A program made the translations under genes and the position numbers. 42,911 nt of DNA from Fusobacterium sp. (GTDB lineage: Bacteria; Cyanobacteriota; Vampirovibrionia; Gastranaerophilales; Gastranaerophilaceae), in assembly GCA_023662905.1 (NCBI GenBank), contig JAMPIJ010000010.1, positions 1 to 42,911 on the forward strand. Reading direction: 5' to 3'. Shown here one piece after another: positions 3,222-40,483 of the stretch (its first letter is position 1; each line of letters opens with the position of its first letter). The notes under the pieces were generated by a model. It was not told the origin of the DNA. It saw only the letters and a list, made by a program, of their open reading frames with translations, and did no database searches.

Positions 3222-3971
3222 AATTTCGGTCGTTTTGATTTTTCTTGCACTGTGTTGTGCGATACATTGTTTCAATAGGTTGAAACAAACTTCGCAAACT
3301 TTTTCGGTGGCTTTTGTTTCGTAATCGGTTACAGCGTTGAAGTCGGCAGTTGTGAGATAGTTCAAAAATTCTCTAATTTTGCTGTGAATGCTTAGCTTGC
3401 CGCGTGTGTCGTTTATGCAATCTTCACAGATGATTCCGCCCTCGTTGAAAAGAAAATAGGCGTTAGACTCCACTTTACAGCCGCATTTGAGGCAGGTGTT
3501 GAACTCAGGTGAAAACCCTGAAATATACATCATTTTTAGTTGAAATTTCAGGACTGTTAAGAGAATATCTTTTTTCTCAGGTGCTTCTGCGATTGTTTTT
3601 AAAGCGTTATAAAGCGTGTCGTAAGTTTCGGCTGAACACGGGTCATTTTCAACGCCAAAATTATTTACTACTTCTGTGAGATACATTGAATAAAATATTT
3701 TGTCTAAATCTTTTCTTGTTCCGCCAAAAGAATTGAGAGTTTCGGCCTGTGAAACAACGTCCATATTGCGGCCTTTGGCTAAGAGAAGATTGTTTGCGAT
3801 AAACGCTTCCATTCTGGCACCGAGTGAACTTTTAGGCTTTTTAATCCCTTTGGCAACTGCGTGGATTATGCCTTTGTCGCGTGAGTACATCACGACAATC
3901 TTATCGGATTCCTTGAGTGGATAAGATTTAAGATTAATCGCGTTAGTTGTGTAGGTCTGCCTAGTTGTCAC
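3207..3971 (-). CDS. recO: DNA repair protein RecO
   Basis: A 254-residue protein with the RecO layout. The N-terminal OB fold includes KSYPLKESDKIVVMYSRDKG and VAKGIKKPKSSLG; a helical core follows, then a zinc finger (CLKCGC ... CEDC, about residues 160-182). RecO loads RecA onto SSB-coated single-stranded DNA together with RecR in recombinational gap repair. It lies 3' of pilT on the same strand, its start overlapping the pilT end by 11 nt (3961-3971), so the two are probably co-transcribed and translationally coupled. Confidence 0.92.
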   Translation of the reverse strand: MTTRQTYTTNAINLKSYPLKESDKIVVMYSRDKGIIHAVAKGIKKPKSSLGARMEAFIANNLLLAKGRNMDVVSQAETLNSFGGTRKDLDKIFYSMYLTEVVNNFGVENDPCSAETYDTLYNALKTIAEAPEKKDILLTVLKFQLKMMYISGFSPEFNTCLKCGCKVESNAYFLFNEGGIICEDCINDTRGKLSIHSKIREFLNYLTTADFNAVTDYETKATEKVCEVCFNLLKQCIAQHSARKIKTTEILAAI

Positions 3972-5097
3972 GAGAAACTCCGTGGTACATGCCTCTGAGC
4001 ATTTGTTGAAGTTCGTTTTTATTGTCAGAGTATTCGACTGCGGTTTCAGCGGTAATAATTCCTGCTTTATAAAGTTGGAATAGTGATGTGTTCATAGTAA
4101 TCATCTGGTTGAAAGAGTCGGCTTTAACTAGCGAATAAATGCCTTCTATTTCATCTTTTACAATCATGTCTTTAATCGTAGAGGTTACGACTAAAAGTTC
4201 GCATGCCGGTCTTCTTGATTCGCCATCGACGGTTGGAACAAGTTTTTGCGCTAATGTGGCTCTGAGAGTTGAGGCGAGTTGTTGGCGCAGAAACTGGCGT
4301 TGTTCAGGCTCAAACATGTTAACGATACGGTTGATTGTCTGAACCGCGTCGTTTGTGTGAAGTGTTGAGAACACTAAGTGACCTGTTTCTGCGGCTTTAA
4401 GCGCGGCGTTGAGTGTTTCCATATCACGAATTTCACCGATAAAGATGATATCTGGGTCTTGACGGAGTGCGTATTTGACACCGGTAGAGAAGCTTTCTGT
4501 ATCAAATTCTACCTGACGTTGCGAAATTACACATTTTTTATTATTAAACACAAATTCAACAGGGTCTTCGATAGAGATTATGTGTTTTTGTTGCGTTTTA
4601 TTGATTTGTTCAATAATTGAGGCCAGAGTTGTAGATTTGCCTGAACCTGTTGGGCCGGTTACAAGTACAAGCCCGTTGTTATATCCTGTAATATTGGATA
4701 CTGCAGGCGGAAGATGTAAGTCTTCAAGTGCAACGGGTTCAAACGGGATAATTCTTATTACCATACCTTTTTTGTACATTCTGCTGCATACGTTTACGCG
4801 GAATCTTGAAAACCCTGGGATTTCATAGCAGAAGTCAAAGTCGTTAGAGGTTTCCATTTTCATCGCAATGTGGTTTGGAATGGATTGTACTGGCAGAATT
4901 TGTTTTATGGCAGTAAGAATCGCTTCTTCTGTGAGAATTGGGTAATTATTTGCCTGTTGAATTTTGCCGTTTTTGCGGTAAATCGGGTATGAGTCAGCAA
5001 GTAGATGTACATCTGATACTCCAAATCTTACCATTTCTTCAAGACATTCGTTAATTTCAAATAAATCGTGTTTAACTAATTGGTATTCGTTTTCCAA
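3961..5097 (-). CDS. pilT: Type IV pilus retraction ATPase PilT
   Basis: A secretion-ATPase (GspE/PilT superfamily) protein of 378 residues. It carries GVSDVHLL near the N terminus, Walker A GPTGSGKSTT, an Asp box around ISIEDPVEF, Walker B DPDIIFIGEIRD and a His box GHLVFSTLHTND. PilT hexamers power pilus depolymerisation and twitching. The frame is open up to a TTG at 5154, but that TTG is the -35 box of the gene's own promoter. The TTG at 5097 is preferred: AGGAG lies 8 nt upstream and the peptide then begins with the usual PilT N-terminal helix. Its presence shows that retractable type IV pili are likely, which gives the prepilin-like genes in this window a machine to work with. Confidence 0.93.
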   Translation of the reverse strand: MENEYQLVKHDLFEINECLEEMVRFGVSDVHLLADSYPIYRKNGKIQQANNYPILTEEAILTAIKQILPVQSIPNHIAMKMETSNDFDFCYEIPGFSRFRVNVCSRMYKKGMVIRIIPFEPVALEDLHLPPAVSNITGYNNGLVLVTGPTGSGKSTTLASIIEQINKTQQKHIISIEDPVEFVFNNKKCVISQRQVEFDTESFSTGVKYALRQDPDIIFIGEIRDMETLNAALKAAETGHLVFSTLHTNDAVQTINRIVNMFEPEQRQFLRQQLASTLRATLAQKLVPTVDGESRRPACELLVVTSTIKDMIVKDEIEGIYSLVKADSFNQMITMNTSLFQLYKAGIITAETAVEYSDNKNELQQMLRGMYHGVSRDN

Positions 5098-5125
5098 TTC
5101 TCTATCTCCTATATTCCCAACATTA

Positions 5126-5154
5126 ATTATATTTTTTACCGATTTTGCGGGCAA
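5126..5154 (-). promoter_or_regulatory. Promoter of pilT-recO
   Basis: On the minus strand TTGCCC (5154-5149), a 17-nt spacer and a consensus TATAAT (5131-5126) precede the chosen pilT start by 28 nt. The promoter falls inside the longest open frame, which argues for the shorter PilT. Confidence 0.65.
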
Positions 5155-22707: not shown

Positions 22708-24930
22708 GTGTTAGTAAGTAGTATTAATATACAGCCGAAACATACGCAACGAATGCCGCTAGCTGAGAGACAGCGACACAAGGAACAGTTTTCTTCAATT
22801 AATAATTTTAATAAAATAAACACAGAGGGACCTTCAAAAATAAATTCACAGGATTTATCATTTGGGGTCTCTCTTTTATCCGTAAAAGTTGATAAGATTA
22901 AGCCGGTCAAGGCCGAGGAAATTTTTGATTTTTATAAAAATTCACCTCTTGGTGACATGCCTAAAAAACTTTATGACAGCCTTTCAAAGTCAGAATCTGC
23001 GAAAAAATATATGCAGGTCGGACAGGACGGAAATATTACTTTCCACAAAAAATCTATTCTGCGTTTAATATGGGATGGTGCTACTTATCCATTCGTTCAG
23101 CTTCCGCAGGATATGCTTAACGGTGCGGTTGAACTTTTAGGCAAATTTAAGCCGCTCGAAAAATGGTCAAAAGAAGTTTTAGACACGCCTTTGTTTAAAG
23201 GTATTCGCAGACGTTCAAAAGAAGACGCTAAAGTTAACTCTTTCCGCGGACTTGCTGAACTTAAACAAAAACTTCAAACTGAGGGTAAAACGGAAGAAGA
23301 AATTAGAAAAATTCTGTTTGAACGCAGTACAAAAATGTTTGACCCGAAAACCGGTAACTATGACACCAAACACGAACGTGCGCTTAACCGTTTGGTAACA
23401 GGTTTGCCGCCTGCAATTTTCCTTGCAAACGATGCGTATAACCTTTCTCGCATGATGGATGATAACAAAGAACAGGCTGAAAAAGAACGTAAACAACGTT
23501 TCAAACAAGAAACAAGCCGTATTTTAACAAGCGGTTATCTGACATTGATTACGCTCGGTGCGCTTCAAAAATATATTAACAATTCACAACTCGGTATTAT
23601 GTTGATGACCGGTTCGACCGTATTGGTTACAGAAATGTTCTCACGTTTGAGCAACGGTAAACATATTACACGACTCACTCCGGAACAGGCAAAAGCTATC
23701 AATGCCAAAAATGCAAAGAAAGATGGCGTTGAGCCTCAGGCAGAACCTAAAAAAGTTTCGTTCAAATCTAACGAAGTGAAAACAGAAAAAGATAAGCAAC
23801 AGCAAAAGCCTTTGCTTTCATTTGATACTGTGGTAAAAGCTTCTTTAGGCATAATTGGTGCCGGATTAATGTTAAAAGAGTTGCGCCGTGTGCCGAAAAT
23901 TGACAAATTCTTCAACGATATTTCTAAAAATTATGACGATATCTATAAAAATTTAACTGTTAATAAAGACTACACAATTTCTAAAGATAAATTTGACAAA
24001 ATTGTTAATGTCTTGAACGAAAACGGATTTAAAGAACTTGCCGCACAATATGAAAAGGCTGGCAAAAAAGCTCTTGGTAAAGAAGATAACCTTATTCACC
24101 TCGGAGAAAAAGATAAAAAGATTAAACCGTTTGTGAACTTTGTTATCGCACCGTTTAAGTTCGCGAAGAACATAATCACATTGCCTTATCGCTTAACACA
24201 AAAAATGATCGGTGCAATGATGCCGAAACAGGCTAAGGCAGAGAAACTGCCAGAAGATATCAAATCTCTTGCGATGAGTATTGATAAAATCGCTCAAAAA
24301 GCTCTTGATAAAAAGCTTCCGCCGCAAAAATTCAAAGATTTCGTTAGCGATAATATTCTTAAAGGTTTCAACTCTGACAGTATGTCTAATGTTTCTAACG
24401 CAGAGTTGTCAAACCTTGCAAAAACTGCCGCTGCAGCAGCGACAATCTGGTTCTTGATGACAGATAACTACAACATGGTTATGCTGAAATCAAACGGTGA
24501 AGATAAAGAAGGCGCTGATACCAAGTTTAAAGAACGTTTTGTTCAAGAGGGTTCAAGACTATTTTATCAAACATTGCTGATTGACCTGTTTAACTCTACG
24601 TTCAGAAACCAATATAACGCATCATTGTTCGGTATGAGTTGGATTTCATTGACGAATACAACAATGGGTGAATGGCTGACAAGAAAATCCGTAGGTGTTG
24701 CGGTAAAACCACATACACGTGATGAACTTCTTGCAATGGAAAAAGAAAAGAATGAAGCAACCGGCTTCACGAAAAAATATTATAACTTTATGACCAGATT
24801 AACCGGTAAGCGTTCAATCGAATCATATAACGTGAAGAAAGATGTTGCAAAACCGCAAGAGAAAGAAGAAGTAACTGCCCAAGCACTTAAAACGGCAGAT
24901 TATATGGAAATGATAAGGAAGGCTCGTTAA
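22708..24930 (+). CDS. Unrecognised 740-residue protein, possibly lineage specific
   Basis: Not recognised. It starts at GTG 22708 with AGGA about 10 nt upstream. The first 55 residues are Asn/Gln/Lys-rich without a signal peptide and contain a short DLSFG motif. A central hydrophobic stretch (about 270-320, LTSGYLTLITLGALQKY then LGIMLMTGSTVLVTEMF), a second near 377-392 (VVKASLGIIGAGLML), and a third near 565-590 (AKTAAAAATIWFLMTDN) may be membrane or membrane-reentrant helices. Lys-rich linkers with a KKVSFKSNE element separate them. The C terminus is charged. No catalytic motif is seen. It has upstream and downstream intergenic spacing and ends in a terminator hairpin that overlaps the stop codon, so it appears monocistronic. 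Confidence 0.75.
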   Translation: MLVSSINIQPKHTQRMPLAERQRHKEQFSSINNFNKINTEGPSKINSQDLSFGVSLLSVKVDKIKPVKAEEIFDFYKNSPLGDMPKKLYDSLSKSESAKKYMQVGQDGNITFHKKSILRLIWDGATYPFVQLPQDMLNGAVELLGKFKPLEKWSKEVLDTPLFKGIRRRSKEDAKVNSFRGLAELKQKLQTEGKTEEEIRKILFERSTKMFDPKTGNYDTKHERALNRLVTGLPPAIFLANDAYNLSRMMDDNKEQAEKERKQRFKQETSRILTSGYLTLITLGALQKYINNSQLGIMLMTGSTVLVTEMFSRLSNGKHITRLTPEQAKAINAKNAKKDGVEPQAEPKKVSFKSNEVKTEKDKQQQKPLLSFDTVVKASLGIIGAGLMLKELRRVPKIDKFFNDISKNYDDIYKNLTVNKDYTISKDKFDKIVNVLNENGFKELAAQYEKAGKKALGKEDNLIHLGEKDKKIKPFVNFVIAPFKFAKNIITLPYRLTQKMIGAMMPKQAKAEKLPEDIKSLAMSIDKIAQKALDKKLPPQKFKDFVSDNILKGFNSDSMSNVSNAELSNLAKTAAAAATIWFLMTDNYNMVMLKSNGEDKEGADTKFKERFVQEGSRLFYQTLLIDLFNSTFRNQYNASLFGMSWISLTNTTMGEWLTRKSVGVAVKPHTRDELLAMEKEKNEATGFTKKYYNFMTRLTGKRSIESYNVKKDVAKPQEKEEVTAQALKTADYMEMIRKAR

Positions 24931-24945: not shown

Positions 24946-24974
24946 TTGACATAATTTAAAACATGGTTCATAAT
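24946..24974 (+). promoter_or_regulatory. Promoter of prepilin copy 2
   Basis: TTGACA (24946-24951), a 17-nt spacer and CATAAT (24969-24974). The same -35/spacer length/-10 recurs before copies 3 and 4. The predicted start, about 24981, leaves a very short 5' UTR with AGAAAGG 9 nt before the ATG. Confidence 0.75.
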
Positions 24975-24996
24975 AGCTACAGAAAGGATGGAAAAT

Positions 24997-25963
24997 ATGA
25001 ACAAACGAAATGTATTAAGTTGCGCAGGGGGGGGGGGGGCGTGCTGAACAGGCCTTCACTATGGCAGAGATACTCTTATCTCTAACAATTATTGGCGTAG
25101 TTGCGGCGATAACGCTACCGTCGCTGACTGGTAACATCAACGAACGGACTTGGAACACTCAGCGAAAAGCGCTTTATGCTCGTATGTCACAGGCAATTGC
25201 CCTAATGCCTGCTTTAAACGGATATGGTTCTACAACTGAAAATATGGCAGAAACTTTTGTTACTGCAGGACTTTCGAAAGTTCTTAAAATCAACAATATT
25301 TGTGACTCTCAACATCTTGAAAATTGTGGTATTTCGTCTTCTTTCACTGATATGCATGGCAGTAAGAAGAGTATTCCTCGTTCTTTATATAATTTAAATC
25401 CAAAATTTCATCTTACATTTGTAGAATCTGATGGAACTTCTAAAACTTATTCACAACTTGATACTAAGGCTGCTGGATTTGAAACTGCTAATGGTGAAAG
25501 TATATTAACATTTTATAATCCTGCGTGTCAGTCAGAATTACAGCGTGATAGACTGGAAGATTTTTCACAAGATAAAATGTGTGTGAATTTTATATATGAC
25601 TTGAATGGTAATAAAGGGCCAAATACAGTAGGAAAAGATATGGGATTTATTACTGTTTTGTATCCCAGTGATTCTGTAGTTGTTGCTCCGTTTCCTGAAT
25701 TTCCATTATCTGAAACTGTTTCACAGCAGTTGGCTAGTTCTTCATGTCGTAATAAGTCAGATGATGCTAGATTGCCAAATTTGTACGAATATATGTCAAT
25801 ATTTTATAATATGGATATGATTGGAGAGATGGGAACTCATACTCATTTTTGGACAAGTACAGTGATAAGTTCTACATTAGCCAAATGTTTTCATATGGAT
25901 TTAGGACGAATATATGAAAAACCTCGAAATGAAGAATATTCTGTCCAATGCGTAAAACGTTAA
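24997..25963 (+). CDS. Phase-variable prepilin-like protein with C-terminal lectin-fold-like domain, copy 2 (13-G, frame OFF)
   Basis: The ATG at 24997 has AGAAAGG 9 nt upstream and opens MNKRNVLSCA. A run of 13 G (25027-25039) then shifts the frame to a TGA at 25045-25047, giving a 16-residue peptide. With 12 G the frame would continue [21 protein letters not shown], a 19-residue leader with Ala at -1, Phe at +1 and Glu at +5 as prepilin peptidases require, and give 321 residues in total. The mature part has the hydrophobic pilin helix, [29 protein letters not shown] and a Lcl/DUF1566-like end (ARLPN, FWTST, QCVKR). From about 25320 on, third positions are more A/T-rich than in copies 1 and 3. 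Starting at ATG 25061 would remove the leader and cannot yield a processed pilin. Confidence 0.85.
25027..25039 (+). repeat. G13 homopolymer tract in prepilin copy 2
   Basis: Thirteen consecutive G between codon 10 and the prepilin cleavage site. Tracts of this length are prone to slipped-strand mispairing during replication; 12 or 15 G would restore the frame. Confidence 0.9.
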
Positions 25964-29956: not shown

Positions 29957-30042
29957 GCTCTAGTGGCGGAATCGGTAGACGCGTTGGACTTAAAATCCAA
30001 TCGGGAGCAATCTCGGTGCCAGTTCAAGTCTGGCCTGGAGCA
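29957..30042 (+). tRNA. tRNA-Leu (anticodon UAA)
   Basis: An 86-nt class II tRNA. Acceptor strands GCTCTAG and CTGGAGC pair with one G-U. The D arm contains GGCGGAATCGGTAGACGC, the anticodon stem-loop is TTGGA-CTTAAAA-TCCAA with anticodon TAA, there is a long variable arm (CGGGAGCAATCTCG), and the T arm is GCCAG-TTCAAGT-CTGGC. The discriminator base is A, as expected for leucine. CCA is not encoded, so it must be added post-transcriptionally. Confidence 0.97.
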
Positions 30043-39462: not shown

Positions 39463-39491
39463 TTGACATGTTTTAAAACATGTTACATAAT
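39463..39491 (+). promoter_or_regulatory. Promoter of prepilin copy 3 with perfect 18-bp palindrome in the spacer
   Basis: TTGACA (39463-39468), a 17-nt spacer and CATAAT (39486-39491). ACATGTTTTAAAACATGT (39466-39483) is a perfect palindrome running from within the -35 across the spacer. Copies 2 and 4 keep mainly its right half (TTTA-AACATG). Confidence 0.75.
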
Positions 39492-39513: not shown

Positions 39514-40483
39514 ATGAACAAACGAAATGTATTACCTTGCACAGGGGGGGGGGGGGCGTCCTGAACAGGCCTTTACTATGGCGGAGATACTCTTATCTCT
39601 AACAATTATTGGTGTGGTCGCTGCGATAACGCTTCCGTCGTTAACTGGTAACATTAACGAGCGGACTTGGAACACGCAGAGAAAAGCTTTATATGCGCGT
39701 ATGTCACAGGCCATTGCGCTAATGCCAGCGCTCAACGGCTATGGGACTTTTGACGGAACAACTGATACTGCCGCGGAAACTTTTATCACCGGCGCTTTAT
39801 CAAAAGTTCTCAAAATTAACAATATTTGCGATCCTGAACATGTTTGGGATTGCGGGTTTGCTAGTAAAATTACGACATTGGATGCAAGAACCAGTGCTTT
39901 GCCGTTAAAAATTAGCAATTTGAATGTGGGCGTTCCTGGAACTTCTGTACCAAACACAAAAGCTGCAGCGTTTGAAACAGCAAATGGTGAGTCAGTATTA
40001 ACTTTTTACAATCCTAAATGTGTTTCTTCGGGTGTTGTAGTGTCTGGGGCGGATGCTGCTGGTAATCCTGGTGCCTATATGAAACAGCATTTATGTGTAA
40101 ATTTTGTATTTGACTTAAACGGAGCAAAAGGGCCGAATACTGTAGGAAAAGATATCGGAGTTATTTCGGTTCTTTATCCTACGGATTCCAATGTCGTTAT
40201 GCCTGTAACTACTCAGGTTTTGAATAGTTCGTATGACCATCAGACTGCCGCTAAAGAATGTTCTAAATTAGATTCTGACAATAGACTTCCTAATATTGAG
40301 GAGTTGTTGGGGATTTATTATAATGGAAATTTATTTGGCTGGGGCGATGATGTGGCGACTGGAAAATTCTGGTCTGCAACAGTTACAGACAGCAGTAATG
40401 CTTATGCGTTTGGATATAATATGGGGATAAAATATGAACGCCCTAAGACAGAATCCAATCGTGTACAATGCGTTAAACGTTAG
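39514..40483 (+). CDS. Phase-variable prepilin-like protein with C-terminal lectin-fold-like domain, copy 3 (13-G, frame OFF)
   Basis: ATG 39514, with AGAAAGG 9 nt upstream, opens [10 protein letters not shown]. Thirteen G (39544-39556) then lead to TGA at 39562-39564 after 16 codons. With 12 G the product is 322 residues: leader [19 protein letters not shown], then [19 protein letters not shown] with Glu at +5. Later blocks are [34 protein letters not shown] and a Lcl/DUF1566-like end ([23 protein letters not shown]). A frame from ATG 39527 ([10 protein letters not shown]...) is open through the 13-G state, but it has no Shine-Dalgarno and the equivalent frame in copies 2 and 4 stops at once. 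The stop overlaps the convergent ruvB stop. Confidence 0.87.
39544..39556 (+). repeat. G13 homopolymer tract in prepilin copy 3
   Basis: Thirteen consecutive G at the same codon position as in copy 2; one base out of frame for the conserved start. Confidence 0.9.

Follow-up and report, generated by a model that had tools for sequence, protein, structure and literature searches.

About 96 loci in the genome of a member of the Gastranaerophilales probably make up a pilin/adhesin repertoire in which each gene is switched independently, by slipped-strand phase variation of a G tract lying between its start codon and its prepilin cleavage site. The assignment is made from sequence; live switching, pilus assembly, ligand binding and a benefit to the cell are what we infer from it.

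The window, i.e. the whole 42,911-nucleotide stretch of DNA that was analysed, forms contig 1 of a genome of 1.74 Mb (G000); among named genomes, its closest relatives are MAGs of Candidatus Gastranaerophilales. It holds two members of the family, here called copy 1 and copy 2. The initial annotation had recognized the switch anatomy of one of these pilins, and that part stands; it missed the scale (about 96 copies, of which it saw two), the lectin-like domain and the lineage.

Leader tracts of the window copies

The features of both copies are listed in Table 1. In copy 2 a leader preceded by a Shine–Dalgarno sequence runs into exactly 13 G residues. As assembled, the copy reads MNKRNVLSCAGGGGAC, a product of 16 residues, before TGA ends the frame; translated with 12 G it gives 321 residues, comprising a leader of 19 and a mature protein of 302. 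It had been claimed that 13 G separate the leader from the cleavage site and are followed by TGA, and that one G fewer restores a full leader ending in Ala before FTMAE together with a 321-residue protein. The sequence and the 12-G reading, respectively, bear this out. Copy 2 is OFF, as had been proposed, its 302-residue mature ORF being out of frame with 13 G; copy 1, which had not been flagged, likewise has 13 G and is OFF too. Both copies have a near-consensus promoter.

Table 1. Positions in the window of the two pilin copies, their control elements and a type IV pilus gene
Feature	Position	Strand	Evidence
PilT-type ATPase (T2SSE family), type IV pilus machinery	3961–5154	−	PF00437, E 2e-50
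Copy 2 sigma-70-type promoter, TTGACA-17-CATAAT	24946–24974	+	11/12 consensus match; end 22 nt upstream of ATG
Copy 2 Shine–Dalgarno, AAAGGA	24983–24988	+	Sequence
Copy 2 start codon (ATG 24997) and first ten prepilin leader codons (MNKRNVLSCA)	24997–25026	+	Sequence
Copy 2 G13 putative switch tract, +1 (OFF) phase; multiple of three required for ON	25027–25039	+	Sequence, frame reading
Copy 2 leader end after tract: RAEQA in ON frame; present frame TGA 25045–25047	25040–25054	+	Sequence
Copy 2 predicted mature pilin: cleavage at A|FTMAE, then a long N-terminal helix, a body and a C-type-lectin-like domain (residues ~211–302)	25055–25963	+	AlphaFold2 model, PDB matches, alignment
Copy 1 promoter, TTGACA-17-CATAAT	39463–39491	+	Sequence
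Copy 1 start codon (ATG 39514) and leader	39514–39543	+	Sequence
Copy 1 G13 putative switch tract, also +1 (OFF) phase	39544–39556	+	Sequence, frame reading
Copy 1 leader end after tract; present frame TGA 39562–39564	39557–39571	+	Sequence
Copy 1 predicted mature pilin, weak Lcl_C match	39572–40483	+	Profile match, alignment

Chance or composition was considered as the origin of the tracts and rejected: the window has 12 matches to G8, all from the two tracts, against 0.08 expected, and the genome has 118 runs of at least nine against 0.65. Initiation at the ATG inside FTMAE is unlikely, since no Shine–Dalgarno sequence precedes this codon and the product would lack the F and T with which the cleavage motif begins. 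The window also carries a tRNA-Leu (taa) at 29957–30042.

Predicted pilin helix and lectin-like domain

We model the mature protein as a type IV pilin helix joined to a C-terminal C-type-lectin-like domain. The AlphaFold2 model of mature copy 2 (pLDDT 91.6) is helical over residues 3–50, and residues ~211–302 adopt a C-type-lectin-like fold for which the closest structure is the C-terminal domain of Legionella Lcl (8Q4E; 1.2 Å over 89 residues, Z 11.2). A Foldseek comparison with the PDB gave E 3.5e-5 for an Lcl-type domain, the PDB matches covering the C-terminal domain only. The Lcl_C (DUF1566) profile (PF07603) scores copy 2 at 18.3 bits, below the gathering cut-off of 34.9, and matches 60 of the 88 aligned family members with E values of 0.01 or less (lowest 1e-7). 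To our knowledge, Lcl is without the calcium and carbohydrate motifs usual in C-type-lectin folds. It binds host glycosaminoglycans (PMC11162425) and resembles the copy 2 model in the fold of the C-terminal domain, but carries collagen-like repeats where our family has a pilin helix.

At the N-terminus, residues F1, T2, M3, A4 and E5 are invariant in 88 of 88 aligned members, which were chosen for FTMAE. The features of a class III signal peptide are present, namely Gly or Ala before a cleaved F-x-x-x-E motif and a hydrophobic N-terminal helix. Membership of the TIGR02532 prepilin model was judged on natural ON copies, one of which scores above the cut-off (17.5 versus 16.3); no TIGR02532 match is listed for the second. 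The short N_methyl profile (PF07963), run on a 77-residue N-terminal piece, falls below gathering (16.1 versus 21.2 bits). The assembly machinery is represented in the genome by PilB, PilC, PilT and a PilD-type peptidase, and type IV pilus genes were reported earlier in the Gastranaerophilales group (PMC5877343).

The tract family in the genome and its relatives

The tract survey of G000 covers 1.676 Mb of readable sequence; a 66-kb contig (C51) was masked and the counts are therefore minima. There are 122 runs of at least eight G, about one tract per 14 kb. G/C runs of lengths 5 to 8 number 270, 31, 5 and 3, and those of lengths 9 to 16 number 5, 12, 32, 39, 21, 3, 3 and 3, a bimodal distribution with its low point at 8 and a second peak at 11–13. 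Both the pilin leader and the FTMAE motif flank 57 of the 122 tracts, 26 have the leader only, 13 the motif only and 26 neither; the 96 with leader and/or motif all belong to one prepilin family. A G/C tract lies within 150 nt of 40 of the 106 contig ends, and since tract loci missing the leader or the motif are mostly cut by contig ends, a few loci may have been counted twice, once for each half.

The roughly 26 tracts outside the pilin family (on contigs C2, C12, C20, C22, C33, C44, C50, C53 and C54) are in many cases near the N-terminus of other long ORFs, in mixed phases, and a few are poly-C (proline) on the coding strand. They show a weak post-tract likeness to the pilin tracts (first 16 nt, about NNTNCTTAACCGG), about half of them ranking in the best 6% of background. 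A dispersed element that would carry the tract was considered; it is at most a possible source, the likeness being weak. Upstream of copy 2, a 740-aa protein (window 22708–24930) has a homologue in the related genome G004 with a G-run in its linker (L154, near 222–247), and the G000 copy has none, which indicates that the gain or loss of tracts extends to non-pilin genes.

The family numbers about 100 in G000, with 103 matches in G006, 124 in G001, 96 in G002, 95 in G003 and 6 in G005. Six genomes of the genus have 86–118 runs of at least nine G, and G005, which is of the same genus and has the six family copies, has 0; counts are 0 to 89 in other genera of the family and 0 to 6 in other families of the order. 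Two genomes from other genera of the family (G009 and G019) have some 90 poly-G runs apiece, and the contexts of these differ; in G009 a repetitive sequence family beginning CGTTAGGTTCC follows the tract. The poly-G habit may be family-wide, on other proteins. In another genus (G018, locus L058) a different FTMAE prepilin has the same layout, with 12 G in its leader.

At 53 family loci TTGACN and YATAAT stand exactly 17 nt apart, the end of the −10 box mostly lying 21–26 nt upstream of the ATG. With promoters of their own, most copies seem to be transcribed separately, and the OFF state would be imposed at translation.

In G000, start, tract and motif are all clear in 57 copies. Of these, 23 are ON, 19 are in the +1 phase and 15 in +2, no different from equal thirds (p 0.42, 56-copy set). 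Between tract and motif the ON frame is free of stops in 57 of 57, and a stop falls within 25 codons after the tract in the +2 frame of 55 and the +1 frame of 36. The frame is decided by the length of a mononucleotide tract in coding sequence, and both ON and OFF lengths exist. The OFF reading frames are nearly all intact: downstream of the cleavage motif the ORF extends over at least 250 aa in 37 of 38 OFF copies and in all 23 ON copies. For pairs of orthologues dN/dS is 0.036 (a syntenic OFF/OFF pair), 0.048 and 0.091 (ON/OFF) and 0.113 (ON/ON), so that synonymous change greatly exceeds amino-acid change between orthologues regardless of phase state. This is not what permanently silent genes would show.

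The comparison of tract lengths in related genomes, which had been put forward as a check, revealed differences between syntenic orthologues of sister species (15 versus 13, 11 versus 10 and 11 versus 12), with one pair equal at 12. Such orthologues keep the body of the gene and have often exchanged the module of leader, tract and post-tract sequence; post-tract 12-mers recur in non-orthologous copies, and family copies are gained and lost at conserved slots. At a histidine-kinase locus with 96% DNA identity between G002 and G003 (L155 and L156), the slot holds a tract-bearing pilin in G002 and none in the fetched flank of G003, a difference that we read as rapid gain and loss. No same-species counterparts of the tracts were found in viral contigs, and there was no PHROG match.

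The phases are distributed differently in the relatives. G006 and G001 together have 73 copies in +1, 16 ON and 4 in +2 (93 copies; +1 versus +2, p 2e-17), examples being loci L188–L217 and L259–L278, and G004 has 13, 9 and 2 respectively (24 gapless copies, states taken from match lengths); the bias is absent in G000. Tract lengths in G006 and G001 track the frame class: 13 where ON needs a multiple of three and, where it needs n = 1 or 2 mod 3, 11 or 14 in the one class and 12 in the other. Among loci of these last two classes the +1 phase still leads by 23 to 2 (p 2e-5). Since +1 is kept while lengths move to 11, 14 and 12, a phase is favoured and not one length, and a preferred length of 13 was rejected as the only cause. 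In some leaders an insert of up to about 80 codons separates the tract from the cleavage site; leaders of G006 and G001, for example L161, L169 and L199, have dispersed repeats (HAELVSAS...SRNKFGMT and similar) inserted there, which mostly keep the ON frame open.

Probable phase variation, its rivals and its parallels

The earlier proposal of phase variation by G slippage is supported by the anatomy of the loci, by the three phases among paralogues, by OFF copies that are intact and under purifying selection, and by the length changes in orthologues; the variation in tract length is that seen among paralogues and between species. At each of about 96 loci, mostly with its own sigma-70 promoter and Shine–Dalgarno sequence, about 9–16 G stand between start codon and cleavage site, and replication slippage would alter the tract one G at a time. 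With leader, tract and cleavage motif in frame the gene would be ON, and the prepilin made, cut before FTMAE and presumably handed to the machinery of the type IV pilus. In either of the two remaining phases, translation would mostly end within tens of codons. As the genes have separate tracts, a clonal population should show many combinations of lectin-tipped pilins. Against this reading, leader inserts of up to about 80 codons are odd for a prepilin signal, and the +1-biased phases of G006, G001 and G004 are not random.

The bias may reflect biased slippage together with recent descent from ON, selection for OFF with something that spares +1, recoding that makes +1 productive, or a consensus error of exactly one base. 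Recoding would make +1 the normal genomic state, with some transcripts yielding in-frame protein because RNA polymerase slips and drops one G or the ribosome shifts by +1 on the G-run, and the tract would then set a level and not act as a switch. The phase counts of the relatives, including the persistence of +1 across frame classes, favour it, and because of this strong preference polymerase slippage during transcription, which the initial annotation had offered as an alternative, is still a live rival. Against recoding stand the unbiased phases of G000 and the ON copies, which account for 16 of 93 in the relatives and 23 of 57 in G000, and we regard it as unlikely. A mixed version, in which +1 is both favoured and productive in this genus, would have poly-G recoding supply about a hundred lectin-pilins at low, tract-tuned levels, replication slippage shifting each gene among three outputs, low at +1, full at 0 and silent at +2; we hold this, too, to be an outside chance. 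As a further rival, short-read assembly would have misstated G-run lengths, most genes being truly fixed in frame; a uniform +1 error in G001 and G006 would account for their bias. The genomes of the named relatives are MAGs, scaffold gaps interrupt tracts in G004, and many contig ends of G000 lie close to tracts, as noted above. However, each true length from 8 to 13 would have to have gained exactly one G, and even tracts of only 9 are at +1; G000 spreads lengths of 9 to 16 over three phases; and a one-base error cannot create tracts at 96 leaders. An artefact of this kind is improbable.

The exchange of modules between copies, the shared post-tract 12-mers and the turnover at conserved slots would also suit a recombination hotspot, a quadruplex-prone G-run that swaps leaders or bodies between copies as does the G4 of gonococcal pilE. 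We give little credence to this as the function of the tracts, although it is compatible with phase variation: pure tracts a few codons past the ATG, in coding frame and with a single-base spread of lengths, are slippage-like, and most copies have their own promoter and Shine–Dalgarno sequence, hence there is no sign of a single expression locus. That the OFF copies are decaying pseudogenes might be thought from the proportion out of frame, about 60% of copies in G000 and about 80% in the relatives, but nearly all OFF copies keep full-length ORFs and dN/dS is 0.036–0.09 in pairs with an OFF member. Intact bodies and low dN/dS lead us to reject decay, which is very improbable indeed.

Most known adhesin families that switch by slippage come from pathogens and comprise about a dozen members. 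The opa genes of Neisseria have CTCTT repeats in the signal-peptide region, where Neisseria pilC has a poly-G run. The latter is thus a G-run in the leader of a pilus-related adhesin, as here, but PilC is a tip protein of one or two copies and not a pilin, whereas in our family it would be the pilin-like proteins themselves that are switched. Like Opa, the family has numerous unlinked paralogues, adhesin-like proteins with a repeat tract in each leader, and would switch the frame of each independently. It differs in having a mononucleotide G tract in place of CTCTT repeats, a pilin helix and modelled lectin-like domain in place of an outer-membrane β-barrel, and about 96 loci against about 11 unlinked opa genes in the gonococcus (PMC3745409). 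The family is Opa-like in design and much larger, and is not Opa itself. Campylobacter jejuni similarly has poly-G/C coding tracts across a small genome in a near-neutral ON/OFF mix, but its poly-G loci, 18–39 genes per strain with one outlier of 81 (PhasomeIt; PMC6321876), span many functions, while here 96 of about 122 tracts are in one family. The total is comparable to that of N. meningitidis, with 115 genes and variation confirmed in single colonies (PMC5084427); those genes serve many functions with mostly expression-level effects, in contrast to the proposed frame switching of one adhesin-like family. No report of phase variation in the Gastranaerophilales was found in the openly licensed literature. 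What is unusual is the scale within one family, and the lineage; mechanism and design are already known elsewhere.

In an uncultured, non-photosynthetic gut lineage near the Cyanobacteria, nearly the whole of a hundred-member pilin/lectin-like family thus appears to be under individual G-tract control. The +1 bias in sister species makes bacterial recoding at G-runs testable on ~100 natural replicates per genome. If the switching is true, clonal gut populations would show vast numbers of surface combinations, which would bear on the recognition of host, phage or food particles.
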